From Hydractinia symbiolongicarpus (Eukaryota; Cnidaria; Hydrozoa; Anthoathecata; Hydractiniidae): DNA of 64,000 nucleotides. The position numbers and the translations under genes are program-made. The notes beneath the pieces were generated by a model that saw nothing but the letters and a program-made list of their open reading frames with translations, searched no databases and was not told where the DNA came from. How positions within the stretch are numbered: the stretch's first letter is position 1; each line of letters begins with the position of its first letter. Below are positions 24,555 to 27,500 of this stretch, piece after piece. The DNA lies in assembly GCF_029227915.1 (NCBI RefSeq), contig NC_079882.1, positions 13,166,501 through 13,230,500 of the forward strand. The letters are read 5' to 3'.

Positions 24555-27500
24555 ATGGCGGATGTAAATGTTGGCGCAGTTGCTGTATTGGTTGCATTAT
24601 TTGCATTAATTTGTAATTTTAGCTTGCATAAAGTTGAAGAAGGTATGAGATTATAGCTGCTTTAGATTCCTAACATAAATATAAGTTATCTAGAGAACAG
24701 TTACATATTTTTTCAAATTTAACGGACTAAAGTCTTTCGCAGCATTAAAATAATTTCTTTAAAATTCATAACGGAGGATGGTGTTATGACAATGATATTC
24801 TACCTTGTTTTTATTATTTTTCCTAAATTGTATTAACTGAAATTCTTGCTCTATTACAGTTTAGCTAGCGTAATTTTAAACATAAATAATCATAACGAAG
24901 GAGGGTGTTACGACAATAATAATCTGTCTTGTTTTGTTTTTTTAATCAAGTCTGGTAACAAATAATATGTTATACATCTCACCTCCACTTCAAAGTTCTT
25001 AAACAAAAAACAACATGTGCTAGCAATTACTCAATCTATAAAAGATTTATTATACAATTTTTCTAGAGAACCCATTGGTGGAATGAGCTTCATTAACAGC
25101 TATGCCAAATTGTTTATACGTAGCTATAAGTTTTGTTAGTATTGAATAAAGCTTACTCTAGAAATCTCAATTCAGGTATATATAGTTTTTCGACTGTGTG
25201 GTTTTCAGTTTTGGTGAGTGGTCGCTAAGTACTAAGGAAATGGCGCAAGATGTAAGTAAATCGGAGACAAGACAGTTAAAACTGTAAGAGTCCCTAGCTG
25301 AGATGCTTAGTTCTCGTGTTTTGGGTTCACAAATTTAAAGGCCCTTAACTCCAACATGAAAAATAATAACCCTGGAAAAAGTAAAGCTTGCAGGTCGCAA
25401 AAAAATACAAATTTATTCTTGTCGAAAAACAAGTAGCTACTAATGAACAAGCCAATGATCATTGATCTGTGGTGTTCCCAGACCACATCTAGAAGGTAGT
25501 TTACGTCGTTACAGAGTGCTGAAACCGACTTTACTTTTCTAATTTGAACCCTGCAATATCAGCAAGATCTTAGCCATTTTATCTTTTTTGCCTGCAAATT
25601 TTTTAAAAAAATAGGAGAAACACACTTAAATACTGTTGATTTTGTTGGAAAAGGTTAAAATTCTGGATTCAGAAGTTCATGTCATTTAATTAATCCTATA
25701 TCCATAGTATTTTGAGTTGTAGACTTGTTTTTTAGTTGTAGACAAAACAAAGTTTCCCACAATAAGGGGAATTTGGGTGTATTTTCAAAAAAGATTTGCA
25801 GCTAATGCTCACAGTTTACTGCATTCTTCTCTATTAACAGCGTTTTTAAGTCCTTTGATATGGCCACAAAAAGATAAAATAATTTAATAATTTTAATTTT
25901 TAAAAAATGACAGGAAGTGGAAGCAAATGGGAAACAAATGAAATACGATTGGGAAACATTTTCGAAAGTGTTTTAAAACAAATTTAGAAACATAATTTAA
26001 AATAAAGTTTGTGTACAGTTAGTGGCTGCTAAAGTGTATGCACTTCAAACAGCAAATTAATTGCTTTGGGTTCCAGAATAATAACACAAATTGATAGAAA
26101 CAATGTACTGTTTGAATGAGTAGATACAACACATTCAGTATGCGTTGACTATTTATGGAAATTTTTGGGGAATGGGTAGGAATGAAGGTGCCTCCTTCGT
26201 GCTCCGTCATATGCACAAATATATAACGCATAACCTGAGCGTCAGGTTATGCGTTATAGGCGTTTTCATGCCCTGAGCGTCAGGTGCATGAGACAGATGA
26301 GATGCACTGAGCGTTAGATGCATCGACATGTCCTGAGCGTCAGGCACATGCTAATTATGGTGTTCTCTTCCATACCATGAGCGTCAGGTGTATGAGAGAT
26401 GCCCTGAGCGTCAGGGGCTTCAACATGTCCTGAGCGTCAGGCACATGCTAATTACTGGTGTTTTTATTCATACCCTGAGCGTCAGGTGTATGAGAGATGC
26501 CCTGAACGTCAGGGGCTTCATCATGCCCTGAGCGTCAGGCGCATGTTTCTTATTCACATGATGACTACACTAGAGATGCCCTGAGCGTCAGGCGCATCGA
26601 CATGTCCTGAGCGTCAGGCACATGCTAATTACTGGTGTTTTTATTCATACCCTGAGCGTAAGCTGTAAGGTACATCTGAAGAACTTGTGCAGTGTGGGAT
26701 GTTGGGTTCTTATATGTAACCATTAATAATCAAGACCTGGGTAGGGTCCAGTTCCCTTACAGGCAAGTGAGACTAATAACCCTGGCAATCTTTAAGATTA
26801 GGTCTATAGGTAGAAACCACCCCCACTGTGTCAGGCTCTACATGACATGTTCAATGACTAAGGTAAACCTAATGTATATTAACCACAATACTAAAGAACT
26901 GTAATTCTGTCACCACAATTAACATGAGCAAAACTTGCAGTTTAGCTCCATTTTAAAATAAGGTCCTTTATGCCCAAAATTTTTAAAAAAATTTAATTAA
27001 ATAATTGTTTCCAAATTGTTTCAAATCGCTTCACATTTGGTGTTAGGGTCATTTGAGGGTTAAATAGGCTTAAAGTCTGACTTAACTAAAAAAATTGAAG
27101 TATTCTACCGTCGAGACGTGCATCATTTATATCCTTGCCTTGTAAAATGTTGTTTTACACTACTATGGGTCATGGCATTCATGTCTGCCTTTTTAACGCA
27201 GATCACATTAATATTGGTGAGTAATGGCTGAGAAAAACAGCAAGCATAAAGTATTTCTTTTTATTCTAACCTATATAAGAAAATTTGATGGTCCTATATC
27301 AGAAAATTTTATGGTCAGGTGACAGTAACACCAAATCTTAGTAATTTTCTCCTGGGAACTATACAAAAAAAATTCACTAATTTTGCACAATTAAGACGAA
27401 CGATGTATAGTAATGTATTACAATGAAGGAGAGGTGTGAATACCTGCAGTGTGAATACCTGCAGTGTTGAACATTAAACCAAAGCAATATATTGAAAACT

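Follow-up and report, generated by a model that had tools for sequence, protein, structure and literature searches.

The first intron of the ERLIN gene of the hydrozoan Hydractinia symbiolongicarpus harbours a dense array of small hairpins, the arms of which differ from unit to unit while mostly staying complementary to each other, and this raises the question of whether the hairpins are maintained by selection on their structure or have come to their present form by copying. The array lies within a stretch of 64,000 nucleotides of contig NC_079882.1 (assembly GCF_029227915.1, positions 13,166,501 to 13,230,500 of the forward strand), here called the window. Its placement in ERLIN intron 1 by the preliminary description of this DNA is borne out, as exon 1 occupies positions 24555-24642 and the first three exons match PDB chains of Erlin-1 and Erlin-2 (best E 2.9e-20). 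Concerning the surroundings, the neighbouring bHLH gene has Podocoryna carnea Ash1 as its nearest named protein (81%), and an 868-aa open frame with Copia-type gag and integrase domains occupies 19745-22351 on the plus strand. Tandem repeats occur at 42874-43143 (125 bp), at 55007-55326 (80 bp) and, with a period of 72 bp and within an open frame that matches DUF4116, at 11547-12245 on the minus strand. Another dispersed repeat, at 23981-24190, has pieces that are 79-92% identical in four of the loci considered below (L039, L040, L044 and L045).

Thirteen hairpin units were located by the core CCTGA-GCG-TCAGG, with cores starting at 26234, 26272, 26306, 26332, 26376, 26403, 26429, 26474, 26501, 26527, 26580, 26606 and 26651 (for the extent of this and other features, see table 1). 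Twelve of the units match the core within two mismatches and unit 3 has three, as against a mean of 0.30 and a maximum of three matches in 100 shuffles of the window, so that the array of 13 hairpins described previously is confirmed, as is the perfect 17-bp stem closed by a GCG loop in its first unit. Other elements of that description hold only in part: the core, said to be fixed, is exact in nine of the 13 units; each arm was said to pair with its own partner, and 10 units show full pairing of the 5-bp arms while three do not (62 of 65 base pairs overall); and the single unpaired base of the right arm is found as a 1-nt-bulge register in all 12 units that follow the first, except that the bulge is shifted in unit 3. 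The array, with arms of up to 17 bp, lies far beyond chance. Folded alone as RNA, nine of the 13 units give the complete hairpin, unit 3 by way of its shifted bulge, and units 5, 6, 9 and 13 do not, and the whole array as a single strand folds far better than shuffled sequence, with an RNA z of about -9 on both strands.

The pairing of the arms is specific to the individual units. When the right arms of the seven distinct arm pairs were reassigned, only four of the 5040 permutations equalled the real pairing, and sliding the partner columns lowered the pairing from 93.6% to 21-45%. Column shuffles, from which the fifth arm pair of unit 1 was excluded (an alignment gap sat beside its true position), matched the percentage paired and the covariation score in none of 500 cases, the pairs with two-sided change in 44 and the number of pair types in 493. 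We also looked for similar hairpins outside this genome. The core plus right arm gave 17 single matches in prokaryote contigs and three in virus contigs, and since no more than three contiguous arm bases pair around any of these 20 core copies, we regard them as chance matches. A stricter hairpin pattern had no match in virus contigs, and phage and plasmid records yielded none either. A read-through translation of the array was compared with a protein collection, in case spurious proteins had been predicted from other arrays, and of 70 candidates none reached E <=10.

Aligned in register, the units occupy the successive positions A, B and C of a higher-order unit of about 98 bp. This three-hairpin unit had been noticed before and is real, though it is repeated about 4.5 times rather than about three; its spacer CTAATTACTGGTG occurs in two exact copies and one variant. 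Differences between equivalent positions are compensated in units 1, 2 and 10 and uncompensated in units 5, 6, 9 and 13. It follows from the A-B-C register that much of the array represents tandem duplication of three hairpins. Judging from their alignment, most units thus go back to a three-hairpin unit by copying, which runs against the earlier emphasis on something other than plain tandem duplication, and the central hairpins would have multiplied in this way.

A search of the whole genome (480.9 Mb) revealed 820 exact copies of the core (420 and 400), as against none for a reversed control pattern. The hairpins are therefore spread through the genome and not confined to one array, a confinement that the preliminary description had named as one of the observations that would speak against its reading. 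We compared 20 regions, namely that of the window and all 19 clusters among 100 core places listed (contigs C1-C3). At many of the loci fetched, resemblance to the window sets in sharply at 26057 and breaks off as sharply at 26951, and at most loci the dispersed unit is hence not the hairpin itself; it is an element built around the hairpins, which in the window measures 895 bp. Its left module is present at 14 of the 19 other loci, its right module at 11 and either of them at 17, and the flanks of aligned copies are unrelated, except in the pairs L030/L032 and L036/L037 and in tandem copies. At L039, an exact right end is located just outside the stretch fetched.

Table 1. Features of the hairpin-bearing element and its host intron (positions in the window).
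Feature	Position	Strand	Basis or remark
ERLIN intron 1, host site of the element copy	24643..27531	+	gene structure
Whole dispersed element, 895 bp	26057..26951	+	sharp ends common to other loci; orientation that of the hairpin core
Left end module, starting TTAATTGCTTTGGGTTCC	26057..26221	+	14-row alignment
Hairpin array, 13 units	26222-26669	+	located by the core
First hairpin (unit 1)	26222..26258	+	bulge-free perfect stem of 17 bp with GCG loop
Hairpin units 2-13, central repeats	26267..26669	+	higher-order unit of about 98 bp with three hairpins; unit 13 broken
Probable decayed hairpin, B position, between units 10 and 11	26546..26574	+	alignment
Right end module, ending AACTTGCAGTTTAGCTCCAT	26670..26951	+	11-row alignment
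Terminal hairpin GAGC-A-AAACT-TGC-AGTTT-A-GCTC	26926..26948	+	9-bp stem, one mismatch, 3 nt from the right end

The conserved ends in the alignments are TTAATTGCTTTGGGTTCC on the left and AACTTGCAGTTTAGCTCCAT on the right. In the genome, exact matches to the left end number 65 and those to the right end 74, the control giving none in either case. Forty-one of the left ends are followed by a right end on the same strand within 12 kb, the paired ends spanning 383-6280 bp (895-1742 bp in 23 cases, 1534-1571 bp in eight), and seven right ends directly abut a left end with no gap, forming head-to-tail junctions. The number of hairpins per locus ranges from two to 24. Twelve further right-end regions include seven with core-like hairpins and five without, though for two of the latter (L058 and L060) the stretches stop short of the full element. 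In L049 and L050, which are complete but short, hairpins are absent. At L042 (C2:26683700-26689700), four core-like hairpins occur with neither end module within the 6 kb fetched, and this locus is either a copy that has been truncated or some other carrier of the hairpins. Three copies of 3-5 kb (L056, L057 and L059) have extra sequence between the hairpins and the right end, with no open frame of at least 150 aa in the parts fetched.

The other loci also clarify the origin of the covariation. Across the 20 regions, 196 units match the core within two mismatches, and the 121 of them whose arms pair completely in the best register fall into eight arm types, five of which (CATGT, 37 units; CATAC, 26; GATGC, 24; CATGC, 19; CATAT, 11) make up 117. 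These five types thus recur at loci other than the window. After the removal of three duplicates (L032, L037 and L038, of L030, L036 and L035, respectively), 168 units from 17 loci including the window remained, of which three with more than four changes from any arm type were set aside for the arm counts. Ninety-nine of the resulting 165 units are identical to one of the five types, and departures from them comprise 89 one-sided, seven compensated and five two-sided uncompensated base pairs, the seven compensated cases not being independent, as one is common to L031 and L033. The core of the 168 units shows 53 one-sided, one compensated and 11 two-sided uncompensated departures. Because one-sided departures so far outnumber compensated ones, the covariation in the window mainly reflects the inheritance of a few hairpin types: the matched arms would descend from about five of these, the copies of which mostly decay by uncompensated mutation.

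The variation had been taken to argue for selection or copying of structure, with uncompensated mutation of copies elsewhere in the genome as the observation that would count against it. Copies elsewhere do mostly mutate without compensation, and the covariation thus gives no argument for present-day structural selection; what stands of the proposal is that the hairpins are part of something which has spread in the genome, and that at least one stem looks restored. That stem is the first hairpin of the window. Eighteen copies of this bulge-free type were compared for their 12 outer pairs, all of which are kept in eight (L029, L031, L033, L034, L035, L038, L043 and the window), two of these, L031 and L033, having undergone a compensated change. 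Ten pairs are kept in two copies (L036 and L037), nine in four (L030, L032 and L044 twice), eight in two and six in two, the copies with eight or six being additional ones located upstream. By the left module, the nearest kin of the window copy are L044, L030 and L032 (93-94%), that is, the copies with nine pairs, and these have in common an A-A mismatch, which is absent from the window copy. Compared with these kin, the first hairpin of the window thus looks restored, with a polarity that is set by four copies, of which two are duplicates and two belong to one tandem.

The two pairs that look restored changed on opposite arms, for which a single template switch is insufficient. It is reasonable to infer restoration by template switching or by mismatch repair in the hairpin. 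A priming by fold-back, with arms reset and the loop kept, has been proposed in a study of RNA genes (PMC8794818), and the hairpins here resemble those cases in a stem reset to perfect pairing around a preserved loop; they differ in belonging to a dispersed repeat with few informative copies. The two-sided differences between the hairpin types may likewise have arisen when a 3' end folded back on the constant core and copied the opposite arm, or alternatively through repair of mismatches in an extruded hairpin, and the first hairpin of the window looks like a recent case of such resetting of arms. A scenario in which the first hairpin was made by one template switch replacing a spacer was dropped, as other copies show the long hairpin to be older.

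How the element spreads may be judged from its ends. Direct repeats flanking 25 copies (two of which share flanks) measure 0 nt in 15 copies, 1 nt in four, 2 nt in three and 3 nt in three, or, with a boundary T on each side taken as part of the target, 1 nt in 20 copies, 2 nt in two, 4 nt in two (the flank-sharing pair) and 5 nt in one, and hence no convincing target-site duplication was found at these copies. A T follows the right end at 15 of the 25 copies, flanking T's having been built into the end patterns for 20 of them. Three gapped flank patterns searched for empty sites had no match. The terminal hairpin folds as DNA with -5.7 kcal/mol (z -3.0; two of 200 shuffles as good). The best subterminal inverted repeat of the window copy has 8 nt with one mismatch, which 136 of 200 shuffles equal, and a 7-nt TTAATTG/CAATTAA match between the ends was seen by eye in the end alignment. 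Taken together, the lack of a target duplication and of an inverted repeat at the ends, the terminal hairpin and the head-to-tail copies point to rolling-circle transposition. We therefore favour, as the most likely reading by a good measure, that the array represents the central repeats of a non-autonomous DNA element spread by a rolling-circle process of the Helitron/Helentron kind, a non-coding element that would have spread through the hydrozoan genome with the help of proteins encoded elsewhere.

Candidate proteins are at hand in the genome, where the Helitron Rep domain has at least 151 matches, several of them in open frames of 1506-2124 aa (150 of 435 candidates scored). Two loci on different contigs (L061, C9:3114800-3124700, and L062, C12:24726000-24735900) carry a 2029-aa frame with Helitron_like_N, PIF1 and DUF6570 domains and are 99.97% identical through the whole 9.9 kb compared; this may reflect recent transposition or, as the identity runs through the whole stretch, segmental duplication. 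L063 and L064 (C8:27388000-27397000 and C7:6631000-6640000), which are 99.9% identical over 5.2 kb, represent another Rep/helicase family, the open frame of which has 1506 aa. Given the Rep matches, the long frames and the near-identical copies, Rep/helicase proteins are plausibly available for moving the element, and we infer both the rolling-circle transposition itself and its mediation by one of the Rep families. Within 36 kb of the 74 exact right ends there is none of the 150 scored Rep places of 435, and the stretches fetched for the two Rep families (two copies each; the upstream end of one lies outside them) contain no similarity to the element.

Canonical Helitrons have termini of the form 5' TC and 3' CTRR and an A|T target. 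The element shares with them the lack of target duplication, a terminal hairpin and head-to-tail copies, in a genome where Rep/helicase genes are abundant, but differs in its ends, TTAATTG and CTCCAT. A closer counterpart is provided by HINE or DINE-1 elements, non-autonomous Helentrons described in PMC4067079 and, for the oyster Cg_HINE, in PMC7492417, some of which have central satellite-like repeats. In keeping with these accounts, the element is dispersed and non-coding, shows no convincing target duplication, has a palindrome near the 3' end (here the 9-bp stem at 26926-26948), and has two conserved modules that enclose satellite-like tandem repeats, varying in number among loci; tandem copies of whole elements, too, are mentioned there for the superfamily. 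HINEs insert into TT or T-rich targets, to which the T after the right end in 15 of the 25 copies may correspond. It differs in that the subterminal inverted repeats of 11-15 bp reported for HINEs are here not above shuffles, the terminal hairpin stands 3 nt from the end rather than about 8-35 (a figure given for mites), the central repeats are themselves hairpins, and no Helentron partner with matching ends occurs among the 150 scored Rep places of 435. The element thus works like a HINE, but we do not file it as one, because there were no subterminal inverted repeats above shuffles, no Rep place near a right end among the 150 scored, no similarity to the element in the stretches of two Rep families and no empty site for the three flank patterns. 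Families of short hairpins are also known from mitochondria, as repetitive hairpin-forming elements in sponges (in one sponge, according to PMC2800124, as two types that differ by few complementary substitutions and often stand in tandem) and as short inverted repeats in placozoans (PMC7813641). These are mitochondrial hairpins, whereas the present ones belong to a nuclear element with long flanking modules.

The evidence bears on several other explanations. A TIR MITE or a SINE-like element moving by other than rolling-circle means would also be short and dispersed, and no coding partner was identified in our searches; yet the inverted repeat between the ends does not exceed shuffles, no convincing target duplication of the fixed kind typical of TIR transposons and MITEs was seen, the aligned right end lacks an A-rich tail, and exact head-to-tail junctions exist, all of which makes this unlikely. 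Somewhat more doubtful still is that selection, acting for the element or for ERLIN, keeps the hairpins as structured RNA or as dyad sites bound by protein. This would accord with the RNA fold of the array on both strands, with the covariation of arms within it, with the full pairing in 121 of 196 units across 20 loci and with the intact outer pairs in eight of 18 first-hairpin copies. It conflicts with the excess of one-sided over compensated changes (89 versus seven in the arms, 53 versus one in the core), the reverse of what marks a structured RNA family, with the loss of the full hairpin in units 5, 6, 9 and 13, and with the result of an Rfam search, which gave no match at the gathering score over the window and nothing meaningful over the array at a loose threshold.

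That the hairpin itself is the mobile unit, as in the double-hairpin elements of organelle genomes, we consider very unlikely. Hairpin number does vary widely among loci and L042 has hairpins with neither module in the stretch fetched, but a left or right module accompanies the hairpins at 17 of the 19 other loci, and the hairpins stand in an inherited A-B-C order. Still more improbable is a plain intronic minisatellite, an immobile three-hairpin unit grown by unequal crossing-over: the unit of about 98 bp is indeed repeated, but 820 cores occur genome-wide, and the same modules and ends recur at many loci with mostly unrelated flanks. The minisatellite is thus refuted as the whole story, and tandem duplication stays as the way in which the centre grows. 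As to a role for the hairpins within the favoured rolling-circle element, we mention, as a speculation that is rather unlikely to be correct in full, that in a family of this kind the internal hairpins might work in transposition, e.g. in Rep binding, pausing or primer fold-back, and that fold-back would re-perfect the stems, generating RNA-like covariation by a mutation mechanism alone.

The open-licence PMC papers searched contain no description of this element, nor of cnidarian or hydrozoan palindromic repeats, palindromic minisatellites or tandem hairpins matching it, and of 37 papers that contain the 11-mer CTGAGCGTCAG, none of the 20 with titles listed deals with it, judging from those titles. 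The repeats of the Hydractinia genome are mostly unclassified according to PMC11067881, and the element adds to this genome a family that is probably of the rolling-circle kind and has hairpins at its centre. What lies in ERLIN intron 1 is a copy of a dispersed and probably mobile element with hairpins as its central repeats, rather than a selected hairpin array. Apparent base-pair covariation, the usual sign of a functional RNA, can arise in a dispersed repeat through inherited hairpin types, and the dozens of complete copies in a single genome constitute a natural test set for the re-perfection of stems by template switching.
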